Source: Mycoplasmoides fastidiosum
GTDB taxonomy: Bacteria > Bacillota_I > Bacilli_A > Mycoplasmatales > Mycoplasmoidaceae
Reading direction: 5' to 3'
NCBI RefSeq assembly: GCF_024498275.1
Contig: NZ_CP101809.1
Coordinates: 992,001-1,056,000 of the forward strand
DNA length: 64,000 nt
Of this stretch, positions 3,404 to 28,557 are shown piece by piece. Position 1 is the first letter of the stretch. Each line of letters starts with the position of its first letter. The translations under genes and the position numbers were made by a program. The notes under the pieces were generated by a model. It saw only the letters and a list, made by a program, of their open reading frames with translations, ran no database searches and was not told the DNA's origin.

Positions 3404-3417
3404 CTTAACTTTTTCAG

Positions 3418-3447
3418 CAGTCAAGAATTTTCTTGACTGTTTTTTTA
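3418..3447 (+). terminator. Terminator of the restriction-modification operon
   Basis: CAGTCAAGA and TCTTGACTG form a 9-bp stem with a 4-base loop, followed by a run of T. It starts 15 bases after the methyltransferase stop codon. Confidence 0.85.
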
Positions 3448-3482: not shown

Positions 3483-3545
3483 TTATCCCCATCATTTTGC
3501 CTTTATTCACGCCAAAAAAAAAAAAAAAAAGCCCTTGGCTAAAAT
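3483..3545 (+). promoter_or_regulatory. Poly-A (A17) promoter module of lipoprotein L1
   Basis: TTATCCCC (3483-3490), A17 (3514-3530), then GCCCTTGGC and the -10-like TAAAAT (3540-3545). 49 bases separate TTATCCCC from the -10 box. There is no recognisable -35 hexamer, because its place is occupied by the A tract. Confidence 0.75.
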
Positions 3546-3553
3546 TGGATTTG

Positions 3554-3573
3554 TTCAAACTAAAATGTTTGAA
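3554..3573 (+). promoter_or_regulatory. Leader stem-loop of L1
   Basis: TTCAAAC and GTTTGAA form a perfect 7-bp stem with a 6-base loop, just after the predicted transcription start and 39 bases before the start codon. Hairpins of different sequence occupy the same place in L2-L9. Confidence 0.55.
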
Positions 3574-3612
3574 TGTCAAAATTATTTTTAGACAATTAAG
3601 GATCTTAATTTA

Positions 3613-4908
3613 ATGAAAAAATTCAATTTATTCAAGAATAATAAACTGTGATTAGCCAGTTTAGGAATTGCTACTACCAGTAGCTTAGTTCTAGCCGCAT
3701 GTGCGAGTCAAAATACTAATAACAGCAGTAATAATACTGTTCACCCAGAAAATTCCAAACCAACCCCTGCGCCTGACTCTGGTACAATTCCCCAAACACC
3801 AGCAACTCCAGAAGTACCAAAATTACCAACTGCAACTGTAGAACAAAAATCTTTAGCAACAGCCATTTTAAATAATAGTGATGTGAAAGCAGTTTTACAA
3901 GAAACTGTAAATAAAACTAAAGAAAATATTTTGAATCAAATTAAAACAGTTACATTGCTTGATACACTAAATCAAGACACTGTAGCTCAATCCATTCAAG
4001 CTCTTGGCAAAACAGAAGATCCTATGGCTGGTTCAGCAACAGCATCAGTTGTTGCTTTAATCAAAACATTAGAAGATAACGTTACTAAAGCTGATAACAA
4101 TAGTGTTCCAACTGCACAAAAAGATAAATTCAAAAAAACTCTAAAAAAAGTTATTAGTGATGCTGATGCGCTATTAAAAACTTTAAATGCTTTGCCCAAA
4201 AAAGATGATGCAACCAAATTAGCTGATTTAGAGAAAAAATTAGAAACTGCAGTTAATGAGTTTGTTAGTGTGAGTGCTGAAGCCGAATTAACAACTAAAT
4301 TAGAAGCTTTACTTAATGCACATAAAAACTATCAAACAGAAGTAAAAGTAGTTACAGAACGATTGGTAAATGCTGAACAAAAAGCTTTCATTTTAGATAG
4401 TTCCACATCAGCTTTAGAAAAATACATTGGTTCTGAAGTGGCAACATTTTTAACCGGAACTGATGGCAAAAAACATACTGATACTTTAGCCCATTTAACT
4501 AATCAAGTTCGTACTGGTGTTTTAGGTACATTAGGTGCTGATTTATGAACTGTTGGTAATATTAGTGAAACTGTAGCCATGAATAATCGACCAACAAGCA
4601 TTCAAAAAGATTCTAAAAGTGATCGGTTATATAAAATTGTAGTTTATCTTGCTGAACAGCAATTTTCATGAAATCAAATTAATTCTGAACTAAAGAATTT
4701 AACTTATCACCAAAGTTTATTATTAAAACTACCAAGTGCGCTAAATTTATTAGCTTTACATGCTGATGTTATTGTTCCGGTTGATGTGGCGCGGTTAAAT
4801 GCTTATTTATTAAATAATGTTGTTCTAAAAAATTATCCCCATTCTTTTATTCAATCTGTGGTCAAAAAAAAAAAAAAAAAGCCCTTGGCTAAAATGGGTT
4901 CTGTTTAG
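3613..4908 (+). CDS. Lipoprotein L1, 3'-truncated copy reading into the next promoter
   Basis: Array lipoprotein with signal peptide KKFNLFKNNKLW..., lipobox VLAAC (Cys30) and an N/S/T/P-rich linker to about residue 75, followed by helical A/K/T/L-rich sequence. The conserved DVARLNAYL motif is at residue 391, the same position as in full-length L5. Only about 13 residues later (after base 4824) the family sequence stops, and the frame runs into TTATCCCC, through the A17 tract (read as lysines) and the -10 box of L2, ending at TAG 4906-4908 (431 aa). The C-terminal 300 residues and the terminator are missing, which fits a deletion between repeats. The protein may be exported and lipid-anchored but lacks the C-terminal domain. 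The reading frame of its tail depends on the length of the poly-A tract. Confidence 0.8.
4833..4895 (+). promoter_or_regulatory. Poly-A (A17) promoter module of L2
   Basis: TTATCCCC (4833-4840), A17 (4864-4880), GCCCTTGGC and TAAAAT (4890-4895), with a spacing of 49 bases. The whole module also lies within the open frame of truncated L1. Confidence 0.75.
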
Positions 4909-4927
4909 AGTTTAAAAAACTTTAAAC
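4903..4927 (+). promoter_or_regulatory. Leader stem-loop of L2
   Basis: GTTTAGAGT pairs with ACTTTAAAC: nine pairs, one of them G-U, with a 7-base loop. L6 and L7 have A-U at the G-U position, which keeps the stem. Confidence 0.55.
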
Positions 4928-4978
4928 ACTCTAAAAATAATTTTTAAGAAAACATAAAAATAGGTAATTTTTTAATTC

Positions 4979-7117
4979 ATGAAGAAATTAAAATTCCTCC
5001 ACAAAAATAAATTATGATTGGCTAGTTTAGGTTTAGCTACAACAGGAAGTTTAGTCCTTGCGGCTTGTGGAAATAATGTTCATCCTAACCAACCTAAATC
5101 TGATGACAAGAAATCAGATAATACCGGTTCAACAAAACCAAACACGGATGATTCATCTAAAAAAGATGAATCAGGTAATGAACCTAAACAAGAAGATACT
5201 AAATCTAAAGTCCCAATAGCTACAACCCAACAATTAGCAGCTACAAAAAGCTTATTGTCAAATTCTGAAATTAAAACCCATTTAACTGATGTAGTTAAAC
5301 AAGCTTATGATTTAGTTAAACAAAATCTAACAGAAGTAACTGAAATTGGCGCTTTTAACCGTAGTAAAATCACTAGTTCAATTTATGCTTTAGATAAATC
5401 TAAAAAAACTTCTCCAGCAGCTGGTGATACAGATGTAAAAACTTTAGTGAATAAATTAAAAGCTGATGTTGAAGCAACTGATAGTAATGTACCTAGTGAA
5501 GAAAAAGCTAATTTTAATGCGGCATTAAAAGCAGTGACTGATCATGCCACTAGTTTATTAACTGCTTTAGAAGCACTGCCAGCTGATGATGCAACTAATG
5601 AATTAGCCGCTTTACAAAAATCATTAGAAGCAGCACTAGATAATTACAAAGAAGCAACAGCAACTGATGGACAAACTAAATTAACTGCTTTAGTAACTGC
5701 TAAAAATAACTATCAAACTAAACTAAGTGCGGTTAATTCTTTGTTGCTAACAGCAGAACGTAAAGCCTTTGCTTTAGATCGAGCAACTTCTGAACTGCAA
5801 AAATACATCAATACTAAAGTTGCTGCTTTTTTAACTGGCGCAAAACAAGGTCAACATACTAAAGATTTAAATGATTTAGTTGCTAAAGTACGCACCAATG
5901 TTTTGGGAACACCTGGTAAAGATTTATGATTAGAAGATGATGCACCAGCTGATATTGCAACCGATAACAAGAAAAAAGAAAGCACTCAACTTTATGCCAT
6001 GGTTGCTAGTTTAGCGCACCAAATTGCCTCTTGAAATAGTCTGAATAACGCTTTTAAAGTATTTACTTACAATCAAGGTTTATTATCTGAATTACCAAGT
6101 GCTTTAAATGTTTTAGGTTTACACATTGATGTCAAAGCCCCATTAGATGTAGCGCGGTTAAATGCTTATTTAGTTGTTGACAAAGCTAATATTGTGAAAC
6201 TACTAATTAAAGATGATGCTAATAGCATTAAAAAAACTTTAGAAAAAGTTAGTGCAGGAATTAAACACTACGAAGATGTTTTAGTAGCATCTGGTGATAA
6301 AAGCAATAATATGGCAAAATTAGTTAAAGATTTGACTGATTTAGAAGAAGCAGTAAAATCTGATACTGATAAAAAAAATAAAGTTGCTGCATTAAAAACT
6401 GCTGCTACAACATTAGTATCTCATTTTAGTAAATTCCAAGTTGAATGAAAAAAATTAGAAAGTTTTTTGGTAACTACAGAAAAAACTACTAAAGTTTATC
6501 CATTGTTACAAATTGCTGATAATTTAAATCAAGCGATTGCAGTTTCTGATAGTTATGGACAAGTTTTAGAAGTAATTAGTCAAGCTAAAAAATTAGAAAC
6601 TGTTGTTGATGGCATTAACGATAACTTAATGATTAAAAAAGGAGCAGCTGCTACTACAGTTACTTCTACTTTAAAAACTTTAGTTGATGATATTAAAAGT
6701 ACTACTAAAGGTTTTGGTAAAGCTTTAAATGATTACTTAAATGTAACAGGTTGACCAGAAACTGCTGTTACTGGCAGAAATGATGCAAATAATAAAGCAA
6801 AAGGTTTAGCAGAATCAATTGCTAAAAAAACAGGAACTACTTATTCTGGTTATTTATATAAAGAAGGAATTGTAAAACCAACAACTGCAGCAACAGGTAA
6901 TAAACTTTCATTAGAAGAGTTACAAACTGAATTAGTTAAACTACAGCTTAATGATAATGCAGCTCAACCTACAAATAAAACTTTAGGTGATGTTAAAGAT
7001 CTTTTAGTTAAACAATTAACTCCAAACAAAGATAGTCAAACTGCAGCGCTAAACAAACATTTACCAGAAATGTTTAATAACGGTGATGTGTTACCTGAAA
7101 CTGAAAATCATATTTAA
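4979..7117 (+). CDS. Array lipoprotein L2 (712 aa)
   Basis: A full-length member of the array, probably exported by Sec, lipid-modified at Cys30 (lipobox VLAAC) and displayed on the cell surface. A K/D/S/P-rich linker (31-75) leads into A/T/K/L-rich helical sequence. The recognisable family blocks, in order, are EIGAFNRSKI, AERKAFALDRATSEL, KVRTNVLGTPGKDLW, QLYAMVASLAHQIASW, DVARLNAYL, and the C-terminal FNNGDVLPETENHI. Trp codons are mostly UGA, including Trp13. A weak AGG ribosome site precedes ATG 4979. Closest relatives by eye are L3, L4 and L5, which share the charged KSDDKKSD-type linker (reduced in L3). I recognise no enzymatic motif. Adhesion or immune evasion is inferred from family behaviour only. 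Confidence 0.9.
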
Positions 7118-7150
7118 TTAATTCAAAATTTTTAATCTGACAAATTACAA

Positions 7151-7182
7151 AACAGATCACAATTAATGTGATCTGTTTTTTT
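7151..7182 (+). terminator. Terminator of L2
   Basis: AACAGATCAC and GTGATCTGTT form a 10-bp stem with a 7-base loop, then a T run. This stem is reused with small changes after most genes of the array. Confidence 0.88.
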
Positions 7183-7193
7183 GTTGCTAAAAA

Positions 7194-7253
7194 TTATCCC
7201 CATTTTTTTATTAGTTGTACCGCCAAAAAAAAAAAAAAGCCCTTGGCTAAAAT
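7194..7253 (+). promoter_or_regulatory. Poly-A (A14) promoter module of L3
   Basis: TTATCCCC (7194-7201), A14 (7225-7238), GCCCTTGGC and TAAAAT (7248-7253). The spacing is 46 bases, three shorter than in the A17 copies, and the difference lies entirely in the A tract. Confidence 0.75.
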
Positions 7254-7260
7254 GGGTTCT

Positions 7261-7285
7261 GTTTAGAGTTTGCAAAACTTTAAAC
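7261..7285 (+). promoter_or_regulatory. Leader stem-loop of L3
   Basis: GTTTAGAGTTT pairs with AAACTTTAAAC: 11 pairs including one G-U, with a 3-base loop. It is the strongest leader hairpin in the array. Confidence 0.6.
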
Positions 7286-7335
7286 ACTCTAAAAATAATT
7301 TTTAAGAAAACATAAAATAGGTAATTTTTTTATTT

Positions 7336-9450
7336 ATGAAGAAATTAAAATTCCTCCACAAAAATAAATTGTGATTGGCGAGTTTAGGTCTTGCTACAAC
7401 TGGGATTTTAGTACTTGCCGCTTGTGGGAGTAATGTTCAACCTAACCAACCTAAATCTGATGCAGCTAAACCAAATACCGATGATTCATCTAAAAAAGAT
7501 GAATCAAGTAATGAACCTAAACAAGAAGATACTAAACCTAAAGTTCCAACAGCCACAACTCAACAATTAGCTGTTACAAAAAGCTTATTGTCAAATGATG
7601 AAATCAAAACCCATTTAACCAATGTAGTTAAACAAGCTTATGATTTAATTAAGCAAAATCTTGAAGAAGTAACTGAAATTGGAGCTTTTAACCGAACTAA
7701 AGTAAATAATTCTATTTATGCTTTAGATAAAAATAAAAACACAGCCAAAAAAGACGGTGATACTGATGTTAAAGAGTTAGTTGAAAAACTTCAAACAAAT
7801 CTAGCTGCTAGTGATAGTAATGTTCCTGAAAATGAAAAAGCTAATTTTAATGCCGCATTAAAAGAAGTGACTGATCATGCTGCAAGTTTATTAACTGCTT
7901 TAGAAGCGCTTCCAGCTGATAATGCCACTAATGAATTAACTGCTTTAAAAGATGCTTTTGTAAAAGTTCTTGATGAGTATAAAACAGCTAATGCAGCCGA
8001 TGCACAAACAAAATTAACTGCATTAGTAACTGCTAAAAATAATTACCAAACTAAATTAAGCGCAGTTAATTCATTGTTGTTAACTGCAGAACGTAAAGCC
8101 TTTGCTTTAGATCGCGCAACTTCTGAATTAGAGAAATATATTAACACTAAAGTTGGTACATTTTTAACTGAAGGCAATAAAAGTAGTGAACATTCAACCA
8201 ATTTAAATAATCTAATTACCAAAGTACGCACCAATGTTTTAGGAGCTCCAGGCAAAGATTTATGATTAGAAAATGATGCTCCAGCTGATATTGCAACAGA
8301 TAAAAATAAAGCAACCAGCAGTCAACTATATGCTATGGTCGCGAGTTTAGCCCATCAAATTGCTTCTTGAAATAGTTTGAATAACACTTTCAAAGTATTT
8401 ACTTACAATCAAGGATTACTGTCTGAATTACCAAGCGCTTTAAATGTCTTAGGTTTACATATTGATGTCAAAGCACCATTGGATGTTGCATGATTAAATG
8501 CTTACTTAGTTGTTGATAAAGCTAATATTGTGAAATTATTAAATGCTGGTGATGCTAATAGCATTAAAAAAGTTTTAGAAAAAATTAGTGTCGGTATTAG
8601 TCATTACGAAGAAGTTTTAGGCAAACCTGAAGGACAATCTAATGGAATGGCTAAGTTAGTAAAAGATTTAACTGATTTACATGCTGTTGCAACTGGTAAT
8701 GGTAAAACTAAAGCTGCTGCTTTAAAAACTGAGGCTGAAACACTAGTAACTAATTTTGAAAAATTTAAAACTGAATGAAATAAATTAGAAGGATTTTTAT
8801 TTACGGGAAAAGATGCTGCTAAAGTTTATCCGTTATTACAAATTGCTGATAATTTAAACCAAGCAATCGCTGTGTCTGATAGTTATGGTCAAGTTCTAGA
8901 AGTAGTGAGTCAAGCTAAAAAATTGGAAACCCTTGTTGACGGTATTAATAATAATTTAGTTGCTAAAGCAGGATCAGCTTCTACAGTTATCTCAACTTTA
9001 AAAACACTTGTAGATGATATTACAAATACCACAACTAAATTTGGAAAAGCATTAGCTGATTTTGCAAAGGAAACCACTTGAGGAACAACAGCTGTTACTG
9101 GTCGGTCTGAAACAAATACAGAACAATTAGCTTCTTCAATTGCACGTGAAAAAACTGAAAATAGTAAAAAAACCTATTCAGGTTATGTTTATCTTAACGG
9201 AATTGTTAAATCAAATCCAGCTGCAACAAATGCTAAATTTTCATTAGAAGACTTACAAACTGAATTGAAAAAACTAACTCTAAAAAATACTGCAACCCCT
9301 GCTGCAAATCAAACTTTAGGTAATGTAAAAGATCTTTTAGTTCAACAATTAAGACCAAATATTGATAGTCAAACTGCAGCATTAAATAAACATTTACCAG
9401 AAATGTTTAATAATGGTGATGTGCTACCTGAAACTGAAAATCATATTTAA
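7336..9450 (+). CDS. Array lipoprotein L3 (704 aa)
   Basis: Member of the L2-L5 subgroup with lipobox Cys30 and a shortened K/D/E-rich linker that lacks the KSDDKK block present in L2, L4 and L5. The helical body carries EIGAFNRTKV, LLTAERKAFALDRATSEL and the TNVLGAPGKDLW block, and the C terminus is FNNGDVLPETENHI. The otherwise invariant DVARLNAYL motif reads DVAWLNAYL because the Arg codon has become UGA (base 8491), which is Trp here. A stretch of 107 bases (8563-8669) is identical to L5, while L4 differs there, a mosaic pattern that suggests gene conversion. Its promoter has the shortest A tract of the long-tract group. Confidence 0.9.
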
Positions 9451-9480
9451 CTAATTAGAAATTTTTAATTAAAAAATTAC

Positions 9481-9513
9481 AAAACAGATCACAAATTTGT
9501 GATCTGTTTTTTT
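9481..9513 (+). terminator. Terminator of L3, 30-bp perfect palindrome
   Basis: Bases 9481-9510 are a perfect inverted repeat (15-base arms, AAAACAGATCACAAA and its complement), followed by more T. An identical copy ends L4. Confidence 0.88.
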
Positions 9514-9573
9514 ATTGTAATTTAGCTAATTTATAAAATAGTCAGAATCAATTTTAATTTCTGATTAAAAAAA

Positions 9574-9636
9574 TTATCCCCACTCTTTTATCCAATTTAC
9601 AGCCAAAAAAAAAAAAAAAAAGCCCTTGGCTAAAAT
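9574..9636 (+). promoter_or_regulatory. Poly-A (A17) promoter module of L4
   Basis: TTATCCCC (9574-9581), A17 (9605-9621), GCCCTTGGC and TAAAAT (9631-9636), with a spacing of 49 bases. Confidence 0.75.
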
Positions 9637-9643
9637 GAGTTCT

Positions 9644-9668
9644 GTTTAGAGTTGAAAAAACTTTAAAC
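9644..9668 (+). promoter_or_regulatory. Leader stem-loop of L4
   Basis: GTTTAGAGTT pairs with AACTTTAAAC: ten pairs including one G-U, with a 5-base loop. Confidence 0.55.
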
Positions 9669-9720
9669 AATCTAAAAATAATTTTTAAGAAAACATAAAA
9701 ATAGGTCATTTTTTTAATTC

Positions 9721-11850
9721 ATGAAGAAATTAAAATTCCTCCACAAAAATAAATTGTGATTAGCTAGTTTAGGTTTAGCAACAACTGGAAGTTTAGTACT
9801 TGCGGCTTGTGGGAGCAATGTTCAACCTAACCCATCCAAATCTGATGACAAGAAATCAGATAATACTGATTCAGCAAAACCAAACACGGATGATTCCACT
9901 AAAAAAGATGAATCAGGTAGTGAAGCTAAAAAAGAAGAACAAACTCCTCAAATTCCAACAGCCACTGTTCAACAATTAGCTGCTACAAAAAGTTTATTAT
10001 CAAATGCTGAAATCAAAACTCATTTAACTGATACTGTTAAACAAGCTTATGATTTAGTTAAACAAAATCTTGAGGAAGTGACTGAAATTGGTGCTTTCAA
10101 TCGTGGTAAAGTAAACAATTCTATCTATGCTTTAGATAAATCTAAAAATCCTTCCAAAACTAATAGTGATACAGATGTAAAAGATTTAGTAGCTAAATTA
10201 GTAACTGATGTGACAGAGGCTGATAGTAATGTCCCTGAAAATGAAAAAGCTAATTTTAATGCCGCATTAAAAGAAGTGACTGATCATGCTACAAGCTTAT
10301 TAACTGCTTTAGAAGCCCTTCCAGCTGATGATGCAACTAATGAATTAACAGCATTAAAAACTGCTTTTGAAAAAGCGCTTGATGATTATAAATCAGCCAC
10401 TTCTGCTGATGCTCAAACTAAACTAACTGCACTAGTAACTGCTAAAAATAATTATCAAACTAAATTAAATGCGGTTAATTCATTATTATTAACTGCTGAA
10501 CGCAAAGCATTTGCTTTAGATCGAGCAACTTCTGAATTATCCAAATACATTAACACAAAAGTTGCTGCTTTTTTGACAACAGGAAGTAAACATACTCAGC
10601 ACACAACAAATCTAAATGCATTAGTTGCTAAAGTCCGTAATGATGTTTTAGGCACTCCTGGCAAAGATTTATGGTTAGAAAACGATGCACCAGCAAATAT
10701 TGCTACTGATGCAAATAAAGCAACCAGTACCCAACTTTATGCCATGGTTGCTAGTTTAGCGCACCAAATTGCTTCTTGAAATAGTTTGAATAACACTTTC
10801 AAAGTATTCACTTATAATCAAGGCTTATTATCTGAATTGCCAAGTGCTTTAAATTTATTAGGTTTACACATTGATGTCAAAGTCCCATTGGATGTGGCAC
10901 GATTAAATGCTTACTTAGTTGTTGATAAAGCTAATATTGTGAAATTATTAAATAATGGTGGTGCTAATAGCATTAAAAAAGTTTTAGAAAAAGTTAGTGT
11001 TGGAATTGGTCATTACGAAGGAGTTTTAGGCAAACCTAATGCTCAGACAGCTGCAAAATTAGTTAAGGATTTAACTGATTTAAACACTGCTGCAACCGGC
11101 ACTGGTAAAACTAAAGCTGGTGCTTTAAAAACTGAGGCTGAAACACTAGTAACTAATTTTGAAAAATTTAAGACTGAATGAAATAAATTAGAAGGATTTT
11201 TATTTACCGGAAAAGATACTGCTAAAGTCTATCCATTATTACAAATTGCTGATAATTTAAATCAAGCAATTGCTGTTTCTGATAGCTATGGTCAAGTATT
11301 AGAAGTTGTAAGTCAAGCTAAAAAATTAGAAACCGTTGTTGATGGTATTAATGATAATTTAATTACTAATACTGGTCAAAATCCCGCTGCAACAGTTGCA
11401 TCAACTTTAAAAACACTTGTGGACGATATTACAAATACTACTGCTAAATTTGGTAAAGCATTAACTGAATTTCTTGCTGTAACAGATTGATCAAATGATA
11501 TTGATGTAACTGGTAGAACAGGCGCAACTGCAAAAGTAAAAGGCTTGGCTGAATCTATTGCTAAAAAAACTGGCAGTAATTATTCAGGTTATATTTATGC
11601 TGATGGCATTGTTAAATCCACTTTAAATAATGCAAAATTTTCTCTTGAAGACTTACAAACTGAATTAAAAAAACTAAATCTAAAAAATAATGCAACCCCT
11701 GCAGCTAACCAAGTTTTAGGTAATGTGAAAGACCTTTTAATTCAACAACTAAGCCCAAATATTGACAGTCAAACTGCAGCCTTAAATAAACATTTGCCTG
11801 AAATGTTTAATAATGGTGATGTGTTACCTGAAACTGAAAATCATATTTAA
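9721..11850 (+). CDS. Array lipoprotein L4 (709 aa)
   Basis: Same architecture as L2: lipobox Cys30, K/D/S-rich linker, A/T/K-rich helical body, DVARLNAYL near residue 390, and C terminus FNNGDVLPETENHI. The block encoding LEALPADDATNEL through SADAQTKLTALVTAKNNYQTKL is almost base-for-base the same as in L5, whereas the SVGIGHYEGVLGKP block differs from the L3/L5 version. It is therefore a mosaic. The Trp codon in the KDLW block is UGG here and UGA in most copies. The gene has the full set of poly-A promoter, leader hairpin and palindromic terminator, and can be transcribed on its own. Confidence 0.9.
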
Positions 11851-11880
11851 TAATTCAAAAAAATCAAGCAAAATAAATGT

Positions 11881-11913
11881 AAAACAGATCACAAATTTGT
11901 GATCTGTTTTTTT
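11881..11913 (+). terminator. Terminator of L4, 30-bp perfect palindrome
   Basis: Identical to the L3 terminator: a perfect 15-base inverted repeat followed by T. Confidence 0.88.
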
Positions 11914-11972
11914 GTTGCGATTTAATATTTTTACAAAGAAAACTAGTTTGATTTTCATTTCTGATTAAAAAA

Positions 11973-12034
11973 TTATCCCCACTCTTTTATTCAACTTGGA
12001 GCCAAAAAAAAAAAAAAAAGCCCTTGGCTAAAAT
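11973..12034 (+). promoter_or_regulatory. Poly-A (A16) promoter module of L5
   Basis: TTATCCCC (11973-11980), A16 (12004-12019), GCCCTTGGC and TAAAAT (12029-12034), with a spacing of 48 bases. Confidence 0.75.
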
Positions 12035-12041
12035 GAGTTCT

Positions 12042-12066
12042 GTTTAGAGTTGGAAAAACTTTAAAC
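12042..12066 (+). promoter_or_regulatory. Leader stem-loop of L5
   Basis: GTTTAGAGTT pairs with AACTTTAAAC (one G-U pair) with a 5-base loop. Confidence 0.55.
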
Positions 12067-12117
12067 AATCTAAAAATAATTTTTAAGAAAACATAAAAAT
12101 AGGTCATTTTTTAATTC

Positions 12118-14268
12118 ATGAAGAAATTAAAATTTCTATACAAAAATAAATTGTGGTTGGCAAGTCTAGGTTTAGCCACAACCGGAAGTTTAGTGCTTGC
12201 GGCTTGTGGTAGCAATGTTCAACCTAACCAATCCAAATCTGATGACAAGAAATCAGATAAATCTGATTCAACAAAACCAAATACGGATGATTCCACTAAA
12301 AAAGATGAGTCAAATTCAGAATCTAAAAAAGAAGATGCTAAACCTAAAGTTCCAACTGCAACAACTGAACAATTAGCAATTACAAAAAGCTTACTATCTA
12401 ATGCTGAAATTAAAACTTATTTAACTGATACAGTTAAACAAGCTTATGATTTGATTAAAGAAAACCTAAAAGAAGTAACTGAAATTGGTGCTTTTAACCG
12501 TAGTAAAATCACTAATTCCATTTATGCTTTAGATAAATCTAAAAAAACTTCTCCAACAGCTAGTGATACAGATATAAAAACTTTAGTGGACAAATTAAAA
12601 CAAGATGTTGCAGCAACTGATAGTAATGTGCCTGATGACGAAAAAACTAATTTTAATGCAGCACTAGAATTTGTAACAATCCATGCAGCCGCTTTATTAA
12701 CTGCTTTAGAAGCCCTTCCAGCGGATGATGCAACTAATGAATTAACAGCATTAAAAACTGCTTTTGAAAAAGCCCTTGATGATTATAAATCAGCCACTTC
12801 TGCTGATGCCCAAACCAAACTAACTGCACTAGTAACTGCTAAAAATAATTACCAAACTAAATTAAGTGCAGTCAATTCATTATTGCTAACAGCAGAGCGC
12901 AAAGCATTCGCTTTAGATCGAGCAACTTCTGAATTAGCAAAATACATTAATACTAAAGTTGGCACCTTTTTAACTGCAGGAACTAAAAAAGATCAACACA
13001 CAACCAATTTAAATAATTTAGTTGCTAAAGTGCGCACTGATGTTTTAGGAACTCCTGGCAAAGATTTATGACTAGAAAATGATGCACCAGCAGATATTGC
13101 TACTGATGCAAATAAAGCAACTAGTACCCAACTTTATGCCATGGTGGCTAGTTTGGCACACCAAATTGCTTCTTGGAATAATTTAAATAACACTTTCAAA
13201 GTATTTACCTACAATCAAGGCTTATTATCTGAATTACCAAGTGCCTTAAATCTATTAGGATTGCATGTTGATGTCAAAGCACCATTGGATGTGGCACGAT
13301 TAAATGCTTACTTAGTTGTTGATAAAGCTAATATTGTGAAATTATTAAATGATGGTGGTGATAATAGTATTAAAAAAGTTTTAGAAAAAATTAGTGTCGG
13401 TATTAGTCATTACGAAGAAGTTTTAGGCAAACCTGAAGGACAATCTAATGGAATGGCTAAGTTAGTAAAAGATTTGACTGATTTAGAAAAAGCAGTTAAT
13501 AGTGACACTGCTAAAAAAGGTAAAGTTACACCATTAAAAACTGCAGCTGAAGCATTAGTAGCTAATTTTGCTAAGTTCCAAACTGAATGAAAGAAATTAG
13601 AGAATTTTCTATTCACTGACAAAGATGCAACTAAAGTTTATCCGTTATTGCAAAATGCTAATAATTTAAATCAAGCAATTGCGGTTTCTGATAGTTATGG
13701 TCAAGTGTTAGAAGTTGTAAGTCAAGCTAAAAAATTAGAAACCGTTGTTGATGGGATTAATAATAATTTAGTTGCTAAAACAGGATCAGCACCTGATACT
13801 GTTGCTTCAACTTTAAAAGCTCTTGTAGATGATATTACAAATACTACTGCTGCTGCTAAATTTGGTCATGCCTTAACTCAATTTCTTACTGTAACTGGTT
13901 GAGCAACAACAAATGTTAGTGATCGAACTCCAAACATAACAGTTCAAAAACTAGCTGAATCAATCGCTAAAACTTCTGTAACTGGTTCTACTACAACTTA
14001 TTCTGGTTATATTTATGCTAATGGTATTGTTAAATCTACATTAACTGAGGCTAAATTATCCCTTCAAGATTTACAGACTGAATTAGCTAAATTAAAACTG
14101 AAAGATAGTGCAGCTAAACCAGCTAACCAGACTTTAGGTAATGTGAAAGATCTTTTAGTACAGCAGTTAAGTCCAAATATTGACAGTCAAACTGCAGCAT
14201 TAAATAAACATTTACCCGAAATGTTTAATAATGGTGATGTACTACCTGAAACTGAAACTCATTTTTAA
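12118..14268 (+). CDS. Array lipoprotein L5 (716 aa)
   Basis: Full-length member with lipobox Cys30 and a lysine/aspartate/serine linker up to about residue 80. The N-terminal helical half ends in KVRTDVLGTPGKDLW (Trp318), then comes a conserved QLYAMVASLAHQIASW segment, DVARLNAYL at residue 391, and a C-terminal half ending FNNGDVLPETETHF. Trp13 is encoded by UGG. It shares a 107-base identical block with L3 and a long near-identical block with L4, so it is a patchwork of its neighbours. Its N-terminal half has few UGA codons compared with L2-L4. Confidence 0.9.
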
Positions 14269-14299
14269 TTAATTAAAAATTTTATTCCTAACAAATTAC

Positions 14300-14331
14300 A
14301 AAACAGATCACAATTATGTGATCTGTTTTTT
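14300..14331 (+). terminator. Terminator of L5
   Basis: AAACAGATCACA and TGTGATCTGTTT form a 12-bp stem with a 4-base loop, then T. Confidence 0.88.
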
Positions 14332-14384
14332 ATTTTTGTAGGATTGTAATTATGATTGACCATCAGTTTTTCACATCTTGAAAA

Positions 14385-14446
14385 TTATCCCCATGTTTTT
14401 ATTTTTACTTTTGCCAAAAAAAAAAAAAAAAGCCCTTGGTTAAAAT
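14385..14446 (+). promoter_or_regulatory. Poly-A (A16) promoter module of L6
   Basis: TTATCCCC (14385-14392), A16 (14416-14431), GCCCTTGGT and TAAAAT (14441-14446), with a spacing of 48 bases. Confidence 0.75.
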
Positions 14447-14453
14447 CATTGCT

Positions 14454-14479
14454 GTTTAAAGTCCTTAATTTCTTTAAAC
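14454..14479 (+). promoter_or_regulatory. Leader stem-loop of L6
   Basis: GTTTAAAG pairs perfectly with CTTTAAAC across a 10-base loop. Compared with L2-L5, the G-U pair has become A-U. Confidence 0.55.
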
Positions 14480-14528
14480 GCTCTAAAAATAATTTTTAAG
14501 AAAATATAAAATAGGTAATTTTTAATTC

Positions 14529-16670
14529 ATGAAGAAATTAAAATTTCTGCAAAAAAATAAATTATGGTTAACCAGTCTTGGTCTTGTCACCACAAGCAGT
14601 TTAGTATTAGCTGCATGTGCAAACAATACCAACACTCCTCCAGCCAATAATTCTGGTCAAAATTCTAATAACCAAAACAATAATTCTGGCACAGACAGTG
14701 GCACCACCAATACCACACCCACTCCTGAACCAAATCCTTCTAAAGTTCCTGTTGCAACTGAAGCCCAGTTAGCAGCAGCTAAAACTCTATTACAACAAAA
14801 CACCATCAAAACTGTTTTAGCTAATAACAAAAATAATGCTATTGACCAAATTAAAGCCTATTTGTTAACTATAAACGAAGTAGGAACATTTAGCCAAGAA
14901 ACTGTTGCTGCTTCTAAAACAGCACTAAGTTCTGACGATGATGCTGCGGTGACTGATATTACTGATGCAAATGCAAAAGCGGCTTCATTATTAGGTTTAG
15001 TTAAGACTTTAGAAGCACAATTAAAATTGTCAGAAAATAACACAGCAATTGTACCTGCTAATAAAAAGGATCAATTTACTCAAGCGATTAATAGTGTGAA
15101 AACAATTGCAACTACACTGCTAAATAAATTAAACGAATTGCCAGCTACTGTTACTGCTGATAATAATGTTTTAAATTCAGCTAAAACTGCATTCGAAACT
15201 GCTTTAGATAGTTATGTTAACCCAACTACAGCTGAAACATTAAATCCAACTTGAACAGCTTTAAAAAAAGCCCATGATGATTATCAAGCTAAAGTTAATG
15301 AAGTAACACCCAAATTAATCGATGCGCAAAAAAGTGCATTTGATTTAGACCAAGCAACTTCAGAATTAGACACTTTCATTAACACTGATGTAGGGGCATT
15401 TTTGACTGATACAACTAATGGTGGTAAAAATACCATTGTTTTAAATACCTTAGTTACTAAAGTTCGCACAAATATTTTAGGTAATCCTGGATATGATTTA
15501 TGGGCTAAAGATGATGCTCCAGTTGGCATTAGTGTTGATGAAACTAAAAAAAGTAGTCAACTTTATGCGATTGTAGTCGGATTAGCAAACCAAACTGCAG
15601 CATGAAACCAAATAAATGACAAAATAAAAACTTTAACATTCAATCAAAATTTACTACTTGAAAATAAAGAAGCAGTTAATGTGTTTGCTTTACATTTAGC
15701 AATTCCAGTTCCAGTTGATGTAGCGCGTTTGAATGCTTATCTAACTTTAGATCAATCAAATGTGCAAAAAATTTTACACGCAACAACTGGTGATAATATT
15801 GCCACAGTTTTAGAAACAATTGCTCATGGTGTCGATTATTTCAATACACTTTTAGCTGATAGTGGTGATGACACTTTAGTGAAAAAATTAACTGATTTAG
15901 AAAATGCAGTAACTGATAATGGTCGCAAAGCAAAAGTAACTGCTTTAAAAACAGCAGCTGAAGGGTTGGTAACTAAATTCACAGCATTCAAAAAAGAATG
16001 AGATAAGTTACAACCTGCTTTATGAATTAAAAAAGACACAACTATTACTTATCCTTTATTAGATGGTGCTGTTAATTTAAATCAATTGATTGGCTTAGCA
16101 AATCATTATGGTGATGTTTTACAAGTTGTTGGCCAAGCCCAAAGTTTAAAAGCATTAGCAAAACAAATTACAACTGCTGTAAACCCAATTCCAAGTGAAG
16201 CTAACAAGGCTGAAAAAGAAGCACCTTTATTACATGCTTTACAAGCCATTATTACTGACATTAAAGCAAGTACAGATACAACTTTTGGCAAAGCTTTAGC
16301 AGATTTTGCCAAAGAATCTAGTTGAACAACTGGTAATAATAAAACTAATGCTGAAGCATTAGCAAATGAAAAAACTGATGGTTCAACAACTTATGAGGGA
16401 ATTATTTATACCACTTTAGTGAATGGTGCAGCAGCCGTTGCTAAAAACGGTGATACCCCTGCCAAACCAAAAGTACTTTCATTTGAACAACTAAAAACTG
16501 AATTAGAAAAACTTCAAAATGTTTCAAATAAAAAATTGAATGATTTAATTAATTTGTTAAACAAACAATTACAACCAAGTGATGGTAGTCAAACTACCCG
16601 ATTAAACAATCATTTAGCCGCAATGTTTAACAATGGTGATGTTTTAGCTGAATCAGAAGTGCATAATTAA
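14529..16670 (+). CDS. Array lipoprotein L6 (713 aa)
   Basis: First gene of a second subgroup (L6, L7, L9 and the L10-L12 relatives) with an asparagine-rich uncharged linker (NNTNTPPANNSGQNS...) after lipobox Cys30. The body has the subgroup version of the family blocks: NEVGTFSQETVAAS, QKSAFDLDQATSEL, KVRTNILGNPGYDLW, QLYAIVVGLANQTAAW, VPVDVARLNAYL, and the C terminus MFNNGDVLAESEVHN. Trp13 is UGG. By eye L7 is its closest copy, with a near-identical upstream region, signal peptide and linker, so the pair probably arose by recent duplication. No catalytic motif is visible. Confidence 0.9.
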
Positions 16671-16710
16671 TTAAAAGTCTTTTATCAATTAAAAAATATT
16701 TCAATCAATC

Positions 16711-16744
16711 AAAAACAGATCACAATTGTGTGATCTGTTTTTTT
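16711..16744 (+). terminator. Terminator of L6
   Basis: AACAGATCACA and TGTGATCTGTT form an 11-bp stem with a short loop, followed by seven T. Confidence 0.88.
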
Positions 16745-16797
16745 GTTTTTGTAGGATTGTAATCATGATTAGTAACCAGTTTTGAACATCTTAAAAA

Positions 16798-16861
16798 TTA
16801 TCCCCATGTTTTTATTTTTACTTTTACCCAAAAAAAAAAAAAAAAAGCCCTTGATTAAAAT
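16798..16861 (+). promoter_or_regulatory. Poly-A (A17) promoter module of L7
   Basis: TTATCCCC (16798-16805), A17 (16830-16846), GCCCTTGAT and TAAAAT (16856-16861). The spacing is 50 bases, the longest of the set, because of one extra C before the tract. Confidence 0.72.
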
Positions 16862-16868
16862 CATTGCT

Positions 16869-16894
16869 GTTTAAAGTCCTTAATTTCTTTAAAC
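16869..16894 (+). promoter_or_regulatory. Leader stem-loop of L7
   Basis: GTTTAAAG pairs with CTTTAAAC over a 10-base loop, as in L6. Confidence 0.55.
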
Positions 16895-16943
16895 GCTCTA
16901 AAAATAATTTTTAAGAAAATATAAAATAGGTGATTTTTAATTC

Positions 16944-19052
16944 ATGAAGAAATTAAAATTTCTACAAAAAAATAAATTGTGGTTAACCAGTCTTGGTCTT
17001 GCTACCACAAGCAGTTTAGTATTGGCTGCATGTGCAAGCAATACCAACACTCCTCCAGTCAATAATTCTGGTCAAAATTCCAATAACCAAAACAATAATT
17101 CTGGCACAGACAGTAGCACCATCAATACCACACCAACTCCTGAATCAAATACTCCCAAAGTTCCTGTTGCAACTGAAGCCCAGTTAGCAGCTGCTAAAAC
17201 TTTATTACAACAAGACACCATCAAAACTGTTTTAGCTAATAACAAAAATAATGCTGTTAACCAAATTAAAGCTCATTTATTAACTATAAATGAAGTGGGC
17301 ACATTTAGTCAAGAAACTGTTGCTGCTTCTAAAACATCACTAAGTTCTGGCGATAATGCTGCTGTAACTGATATCACTGAAGAAAAAGCTAAAGCAGCAT
17401 CAGTATTAGCACTAGTTAATACTTTAGAAGCCCAATTAAAAGCTGTTGAAAATAACACAGCAATTATACCAGCTGCTAAAAAAGAACAGTTCACTCAAAC
17501 TGTTACTAATGTTAAAAACACCGCAACTACTTTACTAAATAAACTAAACAAATTACCAGCCGCTGTTACTACTGATAATAATCTTTTAAATACAACTAAA
17601 ACTGCAATCGAAACTGCATTAGATAATTATGTTAAAGCAACTACAGTCCAAACATTAAATCCAACTTGAACAGCTTTGAAAAAAGCTCATGAAGAATACC
17701 GAGTTAAAGTTAATGAAGTAACGCCCAAATTAATTGATGTGCAAAAAAGTGGATTTGATTTAGATCAAGCAACATCTGAATTAGAAACCTTCATTAATAC
17801 TGATGTGGGCGCATTTTTATCAGATGCAACTAATGGTAGTAAAAATACAACTGTTTTAAATAACTTAGTTGCTAAAGTCCGAACCAGTGTTTTAGGAGCA
17901 CCAGGTTATGATTTATGAGTAGTGGGTGATGCGCCTAAAGGAATTGAAACTGGTGATGGCAAAAAACCAAGTACTCAACTGTATGCGATTGTCGTTGGAT
18001 TAGCCAATCAAACTGCGGCTTGAAACAGTTTAAATGATGCTGTTAAAGTATTAACTTTTAATCACAGTTTATCATTACAAACTCCTGAAGCAGTGAATGT
18101 TTTCGCCTTACACTTACAAGTTTCAGTGCCGGTTGATGTAGCGCGGTTAAATGCTTATTTAACTGTGAATGAATCTAATATTGTAAAAATTTTAAACCCA
18201 ACAACTGGAAGTATAAAAAGCATTTTAGATAATTTACGTCAAGGAGTTAGTCACTTTGATCAGTTTTTAGTTGCGGGCTCTGAAACTGGTGCTCAAGCTA
18301 AATTAGTTAAAGATTTGACAGAATTAGAAACTGCATTAAGTGGTGATAGTAAAGCTACTCTTAAACAAAAAGTAACTCCACTAAAAACTGCAGCAGCAAC
18401 ATTAGTTGAGAATTTTGGTAAATTCAAAGAACAATGAACTAAATTTAGTGCGCTGTTATGAACTGGTAATACAAGCCAAGAAACTTATCCAATTCTCATT
18501 GAAGCAGCTGCATTAAACCAAGCAATTGGATTAGCTAATGGTTATAGTGATGTTTTAGAAGTTGTTGGTCAAGCCCAAACTTTGCAAACTCGTATTCAAA
18601 CAATTACTACAAGTGTAAAAGATGATACTGCTCCGTTATTAGCAACTTTAAAAGTATTGATTGATGCAGTTGCTGATAGTGGTAGTTTTGGTACAGCACT
18701 AAAAACTTTTGTTGCTGAAACAACATGAGATACTGACACAAAAACTAAAGCTGAAGCAATTGCTAAAACAGCATCACCTAATAATTCTGGTTATGTTTAC
18801 ACTGATTTAATCAATGGAACTGCTGCTACAACTGGGGAAAATCCAACACCAGCTAAACTTTCATTTAGTCAATTAAAAACTGAACTTGAAAAATTACAAG
18901 GTAGTTCTGATAAAATTTTAGGTCAAGTTCTTGCTTTATTAAACCAACAATTAAAACCAAGTGATGGCAGTCAAACAACCCGATTAAATAACCATTTAGC
19001 CGCAATGTTTAACAATGGCGATGTTTTAGCTAAATCAGAAGTTCATAATTAA
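16944..19052 (+). CDS. Array lipoprotein L7 (702 aa)
   Basis: Sister of L6: same signal peptide and Asn-rich linker after Cys30, same NEVGTFSQETVAAS and FDLDQATSEL blocks. The C-terminal half departs from L6, with SILDNLRQGVSHFDQFL and a differently composed 18440-18900 segment containing several UGA-Trp codons, so no uninterrupted standard-code frame is visible there even though the code-4 frame is continuous. Similarity to L6 is much higher in the N-terminal half, which again points to segmental exchange. It ends in FNNGDVLAKSEVHN. Confidence 0.9.
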
Positions 19053-19094
19053 TTTAAAATATTTTCATTCATCAAGAAATACTTTAATCAATCA

Positions 19095-19128
19095 AAAACA
19101 GATCACAACCAATGTGATCTGTTTTTTT
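19095..19128 (+). terminator. Terminator of L7
   Basis: AAACAGATCACA and TGTGATCTGTTT form a 12-bp stem with a 4-base loop and a T run. Confidence 0.88.
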
Positions 19129-19140
19129 GTTGCTAAAAAA

Positions 19141-19192
19141 TTATCCCCATGTTTTTATTAGCTGTGCCGCCAAAAAAAACCTTGGTTAAAAT
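19141..19192 (+). promoter_or_regulatory. Short-tract (A8) promoter module of L8
   Basis: TTATCCCC (19141-19148), only eight A (19172-19179), CCTTGGT and TAAAAT (19187-19192). The spacing is 38 bases, 11 shorter than in A17 copies, and the GC just after the tract is missing. A tract this short should slip rarely. Confidence 0.7.
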
Positions 19193-19199
19193 TGATCCT

Positions 19200-19223
19200 G
19201 TTCCAGCTCAAAAAGAGTAGAAC
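19200..19223 (+). promoter_or_regulatory. Leader stem-loop of L8
   Basis: GTTC pairs with GAAC, then a small internal loop, then G-U plus CTC with GAG closing a 5-base A loop. It has the same layout as L9 with different paired bases. Confidence 0.5.
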
Positions 19224-19263
19224 ATATAAATTATTTTTAGAGAAATAAGGACTTTTGTCATAA

Positions 19264-21336
19264 ATGAAAAAATTCAATTTATTCAAAAAGAATAAACTGT
19301 GATTGGCCAGTTTAGGGATTGCAACTACAAGTAGTTTAGTACTTGCAGCTTGTGCTAATCAAACTCAAAACACTGGCGGAACAAGTTCTGGTAACACTAG
19401 TGGTTCAACTAATACCCCAGGTACTGGTGGTGGTGATTCCAACCAACAACCAGTTAAGCCAGCTCCAGCACCAGAAGTGAAAAAACCAACAGAACAACAA
19501 TTAAAATTAGCTAATGTTGTACTAGACAATGCTGAAGTAAAAACAGCCTGAAAAGCCTCAATTGTTGCTGATCAAAAAGTGATTACAGATTTATTAACTA
19601 AAGTAACTGCAATTGATGATTTAAATAAAACAACTGTAGAACAATCAATTACAAATTTAGGAACTGCAGCTAATGCAGCTGCTAATGAAGCAACTTCATC
19701 TGTGTTTGCTTTAATCAAGAGTTTAGAAGATGGCGTTGCTAAAGCTAATACAACTTTAGTTCCTGAAGCTGAAAAAACTCCATTCACTGATGCAATTGTT
19801 CAAGTCAAAAATAGTGCAACCGCATTATTAACCAGTTTGCAAGCTTTACCTGAAGCAAATGCAACTAAACAACTAAAAGATTTGCAAGATAAATTTACTG
19901 AAGCGTTAACTGCGTTTGTCACAAACCAAACTCAAGCTAATGTAGCAACTACACTAGCCGCATTACGTACTGCTAAAAATGCTTATGAAGCTGAAGTACA
20001 AAAAGTTGCTCAAAAATTAGTAGAAGCTGAACAAGCTGGATTTGTTTTAGATAGTGCCACTTCTGCACTATCTAATTATGCAAATACCAAATTAGCAACT
20101 TTTTTAAGTTCAGAAAGTAATAAATATTCAACTACGCTAAACAACTTGGTAACTCGAGTACGGACTGGTGTATTGGGTACTTTAGGTGCTGATTTATGAA
20201 CTGCTGGTAATGTTGATGCAACTGTGGCCACAAAAAACCGTCCAAGTGGGATTGAAGATGGTGCAGTAAGTAGCCAATTATACAAAATTGTAGTTGGTTT
20301 AGCCAATCAAAACGCATCATGAAAAACCATTTCTAACACTTTGAAAAAATTAACCTTTAAACAAAGTGCAATCACGAAAGCTGAAAACGCTGTTGATTTA
20401 TTAGCTTTCCATGTGGAAAATAGTGTGCCGGTTGATGTAGCCCGTTTAAATGCTTATTTAGTAACTAACAATGCTAATGTTGTGAAATTGTTAGATGTTA
20501 GTTCCAATAGTGTTAAAAATAGCTTAGAAGATATTGTTAATAGTATCAGTACTTACCAAACCTATTTAGTTGCCCCTGCAAATAGGACTGCAAAATTAGT
20601 TTCTGATTTGACATCTTTAAGTACTGATGTAAGCAGCGAATCAGACAAAACAGCTGATAAAACTAAAATTGATAACTTCAAAACCGAAGTTGAAAAAGTA
20701 GTAACTAGTTTCACTAAATTTAATCAAGAATGAGCTAAAGTCAGTGCGGCATTTACAACCAAAACTGGAGATGTCGTTACTTATCCGTTACTAAACCAAG
20801 CTGATCAATTGAACCAGTTAATTGGAGTTTCTAAAAATTATGCCGATGTAGTGCAAGTAGTTGCTAAAGTTAAAACTTTAGATACTTTGATTACGCAAAT
20901 TGATACTGCAGTTAAAACTACTGCAACAAAATCTGCATTAATGACAGCATTAGAAGAATTAATTGAAACAGTTAAAAATGATAGTGCTTTTAGAACTAAT
21001 TTAACCTCTTTTGCTGCGATTACTGGTTTAAACCAAACTAACCAAGCTGCTTTAGATGCAATTGCTAAAGCAAGTACTGGATATTTACACACTTCAGGAT
21101 TAAGCCAAACAACTAAAGCCCGATCCGGATCAACACCTGCTAATTTTTCTTTTGCTGATTTAAAAACTGAGTTAGAAAAATTACAAAATGCTGATGGTAA
21201 ACAGTTAAAAACTGTGTTTGATTTATTAAACAATCAACTACAACCAAACCAAGGTAGTCAAACTTTTGATCTAACTGCGCATTTAGCTACTTTGTTTAAC
21301 AACGGTGATGTCCAACCGGACACTGAAAATCATTAA
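19264..21336 (+). CDS. Array lipoprotein L8 (690 aa)
   Basis: Divergent member that resembles L1 rather than its neighbours: signal peptide KKFNLFKKNKLW, lipobox Cys30, and a glycine/threonine/serine linker. The body has TTVEQSITNLGTAAN, EQAGFVLDSATSALSNY, RVRTGVLGTLGADLW, VPVDVARLNAYL and the C terminus FNNGDVQPDTENH. An AAGGA Shine-Dalgarno sequence lies upstream of ATG 19264, stronger than the AGG of L2-L7. Because L1 shares its VLDSSTSALEKY and TGVLGTLGADLW versions, L1 and L8 may show the full-length and deleted forms of one subtype. Confidence 0.9.
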
Positions 21337-21377
21337 TCTAAAACTTTTTTAAATTAATGATTTCTAACTAAAAATTC

Positions 21378-21412
21378 CAACCAATCAAACAAAAAGTTTG
21401 GTTGGTTTTTTT
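21378..21412 (+). terminator. Terminator of L8
   Basis: CCAACCAATCAAAC and GTTTGGTTGG pair with one bulge, then T7. This is not the GATCACA-type stem used by most of the array. Confidence 0.8.
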
Positions 21413-21450
21413 ATATTCTTGAGAATTTATTAAAGTAATTTTTCAAAAAA

Positions 21451-21513
21451 TTATCCCCATATTTTTATTGACTGTGTGACTAAAAAAAAAAAAAAAAAGC
21501 CCTTGGCTAAAAT
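21451..21513 (+). promoter_or_regulatory. Poly-A (A17) promoter module of L9
   Basis: TTATCCCC (21451-21458), A17 (21482-21498), GCCCTTGGC and TAAAAT (21508-21513), with a spacing of 49 bases. Confidence 0.75.
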
Positions 21514-23824: not shown

Positions 23825-23963
23825 TTTCCTGTTAAAAAAATAATCATCTATTTTTTAATCAAATTAATAATTAAAAAATTACGTAATTAAAATTAACTAT
23901 ATTGAAATCAAAATGAATTTAATATAAAAAATTATTTTCAGAAAAATGAGGATTTTCATCTTA

Positions 23964-26081
23964 ATGAGAAAATGAAATTTATTCAAAAAGAATAAACTAT
24001 GATTAACTGGTTTTGGTTTGGCCACAATAAGCAGTTTAATTCTTGCTGCTTGTAGCACTACTGATGTAACACCACCAAATAATAGTAATAATAACTCTGA
24101 ACAACCTAATTCAGCAAACACAGAAGGCTTGAATAATAATCAAACCCCTGAAACAGTAACTCCTATAATTCCTCAAGCCACTGAAAACCAATTAGCAGCA
24201 GCAAAACTTTTGCTACAAAGTTCACAAATTAAAACTGTTTTAGCCAATAATAAAAATACTGCTTTAACAGATATTAAAGCTCATTTATTAACTGTAAATG
24301 AAGTGGGGAGATTTAGTCAAGATACTGTAAAAGATGCTAAAGCCGCACTTGGGGGTTTAACTGATGTTGCTATTACTGGAATAGATCAAGATAAAGCTGA
24401 TGCAGCTTCAGTCATAAGTTTAGTTAACACTTTAGAAGCCCAATTAAAAGTAGTTGAAAATAATCCAGCAATTGTACCAACTAATAAAAAAAATCAATTT
24501 AGTACTGCTGTTAATGAGGTGAAAGTTCAAGCAACTAATTTATTAGCTAAATTAAATGCTTTACCAGCACAAATCAGTGTTGATAATAATCTTTTAGATC
24601 AAACCAAAAGAACATTTGAAGCTGCTTTAAAAACTTATGTAGAAGCAAATGCAACAACATTAAATACCGCTTGAACTGGTTTGCAAAAAGCCCATGAAGA
24701 TTATCAAGCTAAATTAAATGAAATTACTCCCAAATTGATCGAAGCCCAAAAAAGTGGCTTTGATTTAGATCAAGCAACTTCAGAATTAGAAAAATACATC
24801 AACACTGATGTAGCTACTTTTTTATCAGATACAACTAATGGGACAAATCATTCCCTTGTTTTAAACGCCTTAGTAACTAAAGTGCGAATTAATGTTTTAG
24901 GTACTGCTGGTTATAACTTGTGAGCAGAAGGAGATGCACCTAAAGGAATTCCAACCGGCACTAATAAAAAACCAAGTACGCAACTTTATGCAATTGTGGT
25001 TGGTTTAGCAAATCAAACTGCCGCTTGAAATCATTTAAGTGAGGCAATCAAAACATTGACTTTTAACCACAATTTAATTTTAGGAACCACTAGTGCTGTT
25101 AATGTTTTAGCATTACATTTAGCAACTCCAGTTCCAGTAGATGTTGCTCGACTAAATGCTTATTTAATTGTTGCTGATGCTAATGTTGTTAAAATTTTAA
25201 CTGAGGGCACTGATAGTATTGCCAAAGTTTTAGAAACAATTGCCAAAGGGATTAGTCAATATGAAGTTCTTTTATCTGAAGAAGGAAAAGATAGTTTAGT
25301 GCAAAAATTAACCGTTTTAGAAAATAAGGTGGAAGATACTCAACGCAAGAAAAAAGTAACTGATTTAAAAACGGCAACTCAAGAATTAGTAACTAAATTT
25401 GCTACTTTTAAAAAGGAGTGAAATAAATTACAACCTTTATTATGAACCACAAGTGGTACTAAAATAACTTATCCATTATTAGATAATGCCACTAATTTGA
25501 ACCAATTAATTGGTTTAGCTAATCACTATGATGATGTCTTACAAGTTGTTGGTCAAGCCCAAAGTTTAAAAACATTGATAACTCAAATTACTACCGCAGT
25601 AAAACCTATTCCCGCAGATACAACTAACTCAATCAAAGAAGCCCCATTGATTGCATCATTAACTGGAATGGTTGCTAATATTAATAGTTTGACTCAAGGA
25701 TTTGGTAAAGCATTGAATGATTTTATTGCTGAAACCGCATGAACTAGTGAAAATAGAACCACTGTAGAAGCGCTTGCTAAATCCACAACTACTGGAAAAA
25801 CAACAACCAAAACTGGTTTAATTTACACTGATTTAGTAGAAGGCGTCGCTGCACAAACTACTGGGGACATCCAAACACCTACTAAATTATCCCTTAAACA
25901 TTTAAAAATTGAACTAGAAAAATTACAAGATACAACTGGTAGAAAATTGCATGATTTATTAGGGCTATTAAACAAACAACTACAACCAAGTGGAAGTAGT
26001 CAAACTGCTCGTTTAAATAATCATTTAGCTGCAATTTTTAATAATGGTAATGTTCTACCTGAATCAGAAGTGCATAATTAA
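23964..26081 (+). CDS. Array lipoprotein L10 (705 aa)
   Basis: First of three related genes (L10-L12). Lipobox LILAAC with Cys30 is followed by an Asn/Ser/Thr linker (about 31-72) and the body NEVGRFSQDTVKDAK, QKSGFDLDQATSELEKY, KVRINVLGTAGYNLW, VPVDVARLNAYL and NNGNVLPESEVHN. Start ATG 23964 gives MRKWNLFKKNKLW and follows a GAGG ribosome site. Sequence is like L9 in the first half. The C terminus has NNGN rather than NNGD, a change shared with L11. Confidence 0.9.
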
Positions 26082-26116
26082 TAAACAAGTAATTTTTTTA
26101 GACAATACTATAAAAA

Positions 26117-26150
26117 CAAAACAGATCACATTGAATGTGATCCGTTTTTT
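26117..26150 (+). terminator. Terminator of L10
   Basis: AACAGATCACATT pairs with AATGTGATCCGTT apart from one A-C mismatch; T6 follows. Confidence 0.85.
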
Positions 26151-26161
26151 GTTTTATTAAA

Positions 26162-26191
26162 TTTACAAGTGAGAAAATATCATATTATAAT
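26162..26191 (+). promoter_or_regulatory. Promoter of L11
   Basis: TTTACA (26162-26167), 18-base spacer, TATAAT (26186-26191). It lies inside an 89-base block (26144-26232) that is identical upstream of L12. Confidence 0.7.
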
Positions 26192-28518: not shown

Positions 28519-28557
28519 TTCAACAAATAATTTTTGAATAAAAATATATATAAAACA

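Follow-up and report, generated by a model that had tools for sequence, protein, structure and literature searches.

The vlp genes of Mycoplasma hyorhinis are presented in published descriptions as a family of surface lipoprotein genes with one promoter each and a poly-A tract in that promoter (PMC10502178, PMC2268961), and insertions or deletions in this tract are stated to switch expression (PMC10502178). For vlp, maa2 and vmm alike, the summary given in a later paper is that the indels change the spacer between the -35 and the -10 (PMC2268961), and in M. agalactiae the T homopolymer that immediately precedes the -10 of the vpma genes was shown not to vary expression (PMC2268961). The vlhA genes of M. 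gallisepticum form a large tandem lipoprotein family with a spacing of around 2.3 kb, and how the minimal transcription machinery reads their length-changing repeat is still open (PMC6258824). Transcription in that species starts 5-7 nt after TAWAAT, preferably at G or A, and a -35 is rare (PMC5138195).

We analysed a stretch of 64,000 nucleotides (the window; positions 992001-1056000) of the Mycoplasmoides fastidiosum genome, which is a single contig of 1.22 Mb and was translated with TGA as W. A preliminary description had reported nine paralogous promoters (L1-L9; see Table 1) with a variable poly-A tract. That number is an effect of the window: a genome-wide pattern search recovered 25 copies, all on one strand, of which 24 make up a 65-kb array (948759 to 1013451) and the remaining one lies 148 kb off, at 1161362. 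The consensus of the module is A4-6-TTATCCCCA-N3-T4/5-N11-(GCC)-A(7-20)-GCCCTTGGC-TAAAAT, in which the GCC is loosely kept, followed by seven bases, a hairpin beginning with GTTYAR, the sequence TTATTTTTA and the ATG, which in most copies is preceded by AAGGA, resembling a ribosome-binding site. The + strand of the window carries TTATCCCC at the nine box starts of Table 1 and at one further, unrelated site (48164), against a chance count for the whole window of 0.89 on average and 4 at most (dinucleotide shuffles). The exact full module pattern was found 22 times in a 126-kb region and in 0 of 200 order-1 Markov simulations, and of the 37 A runs of at least 13 in the genome 22 are located inside the module.

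Tract lengths in the 25 copies were: A17 (nine copies), A16 (five), A14 (four), A15 (two) and A20, A18, A9, A8 and A7 (one each), all as given by one assembly, in which homopolymers are error-prone. Re-measurement returned exactly the lengths first reported for L1-L9 (17, 17, 14, 17, 16, 16, 17, 8 and 17), as well as the spacings between the end of TTATCCCC and TAAAAT (49, 49, 46, 49, 48, 48, 50, 38 and 49) and the sequence variants TTGAT in L7 and CCTTGGT in L8. The differences in length do reside nearly entirely in the A run, since outside it only L7 (one extra base ahead of the tract) and L8 (7 nt between tract and -10, where the others have 9) deviate within the window. In the full set, 22 copies have 23 nt between the end of the box and the tract, and three have 24 nt; tract and -10 are 9 nt apart in 23/25. 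TAAAAT is present in 25/25, as the search pattern requires, and was also recognized by eye in the nine copies of the window. The mean pairwise identity amounts to 98% for the box with its A, 89% for the preceding A5 and 86% for the T run, and to 37-39% for the linker and the upstream DNA; because of this difference, selection most likely preserves the box.

Table 1. Promoters, lipoprotein genes and terminator-like hairpins in the window (positions counted from its first letter)
Feature	Position	Strand	Details
L1 promoter	3483..3545	+	box 3483-3491; A17 3514-3530; GCCCTTGGC; -10 3540-3545; hairpin from 3553
L2 promoter	4833..4895	+	box 4833-4841; A17 4864-4880; -10 4890-4895; hairpin from 4903
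L3 promoter	7194..7253	+	box 7194-7202; A14 7225-7238; -10 7248-7253; hairpin from 7261
L4 promoter	9574..9636	+	box 9574-9582; A17 9605-9621; -10 9631-9636; hairpin from 9644
L5 promoter	11973..12034	+	box 11973-11981; A16 12004-12019; -10 12029-12034; hairpin from 12042
L6 promoter	14385..14446	+	box 14385-14393; A16 14416-14431; -10 14441-14446; hairpin from 14454
L7 promoter	16798..16861	+	box 16798-16806; 24-nt linker; A17 16830-16846; GCCCTTGAT; -10 16856-16861; hairpin from 16869
L8 promoter	19141..19192	+	box 19141-19149; A8 19172-19179; CCTTGGT, 7 nt; -10 19187-19192; hairpin from 19200
L9 promoter	21451..21513	+	box 21451-21459; A17 21482-21498; -10 21508-21513; hairpin from 21521
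Lipoprotein gene L1, 3'-truncated	3613..4908	+	431 aa; frame crosses the L2 box and A17 tract (..KNYPHSFIQSVVKKKKKKPLAKMGSV)
Full-length lipoprotein genes L2-L5	4979-7117, 7336-9450, 9721-11850, 12118-14268	+	signal peptide, lipobox LAAC
Full-length lipoprotein genes L6-L9	14529-16670, 16944-19052, 19264-21336, 21585-23711	+	signal peptide, lipobox LAAC
Family paralogs, upstream DNA without module (region 23946..35809)	e.g. 23946-26081, start near 26320, 31130-33343, 33578-35809	+	
Terminator-like hairpin before L1 promoter	3416..3441	+	11 pairs, T-rich tail
Terminator-like hairpins before L3-L5	7149-7179, 9481-9510, 11881-11910	+	12-14 pairs
Terminator-like hairpins before L6-L9	14300-14329, 16711-16742, 19094-19126, 21379-21407	+	12-14 pairs

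The resemblance to the poly-A switch of vlp, which the preliminary description had pointed out, holds for the tract, a variable A run just upstream of the -10, and for the type of gene, surface lipoproteins with promoters of their own; it does not hold for the spacer. In vlp, as described in later papers, the tract separates the -35 from the -10, whereas here the -35 position falls inside the tract, the near end of which is 9 nt away from the -10; the conserved upstream box and the hairpin at the predicted +1 are additional with respect to the published vlp descriptions. The earlier remark that a canonical -35 is absent proved correct and can be made stronger: AAAAAA occupies the -35 hexamer in 21/25 copies if the spacer is taken as 17 nt and in 22/25 if it is taken as 16 nt. 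With vlhA the module shares the large tandem lipoprotein family at a comparable spacing, the variable tract between flanks that are conserved on both sides, and the conserved leader (PMC6258824, PMC5138195, and nine vlhA-type promoters that we inspected in genome G092). It differs in that the vlhA tract consists of GAA instead of pure A and lies ~38 nt further from the -10, that the vlhA -10 is GCGAAAAT and not TAAAAT (25/25 here), that the flanks have no evident sequence similarity, and that the proteins belong to another family. In sequence terms the module is therefore vlp-like in its tract and vlhA-like in its flanks, and we file it under neither system because the spacer arrangement, the GAA repeat and GCGAAAAT are all lacking. 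Two other ways to partition the promoter were rejected: a GCCAA...TTGGC dimer site around the tract, of which both arms (GCC/TTGGC) are found in just 7/25 copies, and TTGGC as a -35, which has no consistent -10-like hexamer 16-18 nt downstream, while the start of the hairpin fits TAAAAT.

Since the A run spans the -35 region, tract length cannot alter the spacing between -35 and -10. With tracts of at least 14, the stretch between the -10 and about -35 reads the same after an indel, so that, judged by the layout, a change in length shifts only the upstream box relative to the -10; the sequence thereby argues against the explanation published for vlp, maa2 and vmm in most copies, the tract being built of one base and containing the -35 position. 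The modal distance from box start to -10 start is 56-57. Diverged relatives that lack the arrangement of GCCCTTGGC and A17 point to a preferred distance of 57-60: measured start to start, it is 60 in the paralog at 136774(-), where the box is exact and a long A run is absent, 59 in the one at 953622, which combines a three-mismatch box with A14 and a 13-nt spacer, and 57-59 in the one at 951294, whose box has three mismatches as well. Boxes with at most three mismatches were found in 4/8 diverged promoters versus 0.46 expected from shuffles, a comparison that was chosen post hoc and in which the mismatch cases are weak by themselves. The family thus offers ~25 natural length variants in one genome, plus a diverged copy that has no long A run. 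The suggestion that the far-side TTATCCCC is functionally tied to the tract is supported in so far as the box stands at 98% against 37% for the linker, the A run covers the -35 and the diverged copies keep 57-60; the 'helical phase' and the 'bound activator' that went with it are readings of the pattern, and distances of 46-60 would fit either helical phase or plain distance.

The leader hairpin begins exactly 7 nt past TAAAAT in 25/25 leaders, and its paired positions covary. Its predicted pairing comprises 91% of the cells in 23 distinct leaders, against no more than 48% after sliding, and 16 cells were changed on both sides versus 5.8 ± 3.1 in shuffles, counts that are inflated by the kinship of the copies. 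Because of the start position known for M. gallisepticum, 5-7 nt after TAWAAT (PMC5138195), the hairpin is predicted to begin at +1, the G of GTTYAR. Terminator-like hairpins of 11-14 pairs are found ahead of 8/9 promoters in the window, L2, which comes after the truncated L1, being the exception. Each gene of the family has its own promoter and, with that one exception, its own terminator, and by these predicted terminators most genes are set apart as single units.

Phase variation by tract length is likely, and we favour a ruler from box to -10 that would be read by a putative box-binding factor; that the module is a poly-A contingency promoter read in this manner we consider evenly poised between right and wrong. 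Slippage in the A run, which we infer, would lengthen or shorten it by one base or a few. The core from -10 to about -35 would remain constant, and the distance and rotational phase of A5-TTATCCCCA-N3-TTTT with respect to TAAAAT would change, such that a DNA-binding protein, or a contact of RNA polymerase at the upstream element, might allow transcription at permitted distances alone. A16-A17 (about 56-57 from box start to -10 start) would be the likeliest ON range because these lengths are the mode. Genes in the ON state would start at the G of GTTYAR and yield an mRNA whose very 5' end folds into a hairpin that possibly guards it against decay, and most units would terminate at their own terminator. 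With ~25 such units, cells could show random combinations of lipoproteins, for which an antigenic role may be supposed. Somewhat more tentatively, the poly-A switch could be described as a length-tunable linker between TTATCCCCA, as a dedicated upstream site, and the -10, with one protein reading ~25 independently slipping rulers and a 5'-terminal mRNA hairpin added; if true, it would act otherwise than through -35/-10 spacing.

An array without any switch, in which the A run is static, its lengths reflect neutral drift and some assembly error, and the genes mainly serve as a store for recombination, would find a precedent in the vpma T tract beside the -10 that leaves expression unchanged (PMC2268961). 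It would also agree with tract lengths that were taken from a single assembly and with the rearrangement or decay seen in L1 and in the gene at 948881. We nevertheless regard it as unlikely, as long A runs are enriched at exactly these promoters and near-identical sister promoters differ in length: one pair with identical linkers has A15 versus A16, another, whose linkers differ by two substitutions and whose leaders begin identically, has A14 versus A16, differences that favour a mutable tract.

Such a mutable tract could still be read by the A run itself, through curvature or a UP-like contact of the alpha subunit, with TTATCCCCA constitutive or uninvolved. Between -20 and -40, A runs could plausibly act as intrinsic elements of a promoter, and lengths of at least 14 dominate in the set; against this stands that the box is the most conserved part of the module and that in one diverged paralog box and distance persist although a long A run is missing, and we rate this mode of readout as rather unlikely. 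A third reading takes TTATCCCCA for a DnaA-type box, so that the lipoprotein promoters would answer to DnaA or to replication. TTATCCCCA has one mismatch to the DnaA box TTATCCACA (8/9), the promoter at 986061 carries exactly TTATCCACA, and TTATCCACA and TTATCCTCA occur in the DNA just after dnaA. The likeness was, however, noticed after the fact, the stretches inspected beside dnaA did not contain TTATCCCCA, and the C at position 7 falls outside the usual relaxed DnaA-box consensus; this we hold to be very improbable.

The proteins of the family are ~700 aa when intact and 37-77% identical to the first member in the sample that was aligned. None of the members scanned matched a Pfam or NCBIfam family above cut-off, a profile of the lipoproteins found no relative in the named genomes, and a search of 320 genomes of the order gave just short, mostly N-terminal matches; the taxonomic family of the organism was represented by 95 genomes, with no second one of the same genus. 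The predicted structure is mostly helical (pLDDT 75), and the fold search returned no significant match. The L1 gene ends prematurely and runs into the L2 promoter, a configuration suggestive of a recombination or deletion event between repeats; rearrangement or decay is likewise seen in the gene at 948881.

Partial likenesses to the module were encountered in other genomes. A genome of another genus (G144) has three TTTGGC-A13/14/16-G-TAAAAT promoters ~1 kb apart in one stretch (L084), with variable A runs that adjoin TAAAAT, as here; there the A run and one G form a -35/-10-like spacer of ~14-17 nt and the TTATCCCCA box is absent. These promoters, at 546, 1501 and 2595 (A13, A16 and A14, in that order), constitute a candidate vlp-style spacer switch. 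In the genus g29 (G126-G132) the repeat A(13-20)-TGYTTGGTC-TAAAAT is closely alike in its downstream half (A run, YTTGG and TAAAAT 9 nt on) and differs in being dispersed, in its upstream half and in a further TATAAT downstream; several copies occur per genome (e.g. in L068 and L190), followed by ATG-T5-7-GTC. We did not retain these repeats as homologous promoters, on account of the other upstream half and of the lack of a long ORF directly after most copies examined. A scan of the named genomes for TTATCCMCA-N-A12 gave no mycoplasma among the matches listed, many of which came from two uncultured alphaproteobacterial MAGs (CALXZJ01 and CALXTI01; L091-L168). These contain a dispersed promoter-like repeat, TTATCCCCA..TTTAAAATTGC-A12-CGGTTTAGAAT, with 60 copies in the sampled stretches, 52 of which have exactly 12 A's, a count biased by a sampling pattern that required at least 12 A's.

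Other homopolymer runs were observed near genes of the same genome. In the window, an ATPase-type restriction gene (266-1798), BbrUII/HgiDII-like at a score under the curated cut-off, has an 18-T run (188-205) ~60 nt ahead of it and a gene for a C5 cytosine methylase (2156-3403) behind it, and together they form a possible phase-variable restriction-modification system. At 522-549 of the stretch L203 (598000-600600 of the genome), an A17 run is found ~10 nt ahead of the start of a cas9-like gene, which the assembly shows broken up into three different reading frames and the identity of which was read by eye, Pfam giving just a weak RRXRR match; an A14 run is located upstream of cas1 (L204). 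Finally, A14-A15 runs occur at the start of further predicted surface proteins or lipoproteins, or upstream of it, at ~636.4, 569.7 and 314.3 kb (L205, L202 and L200, respectively).
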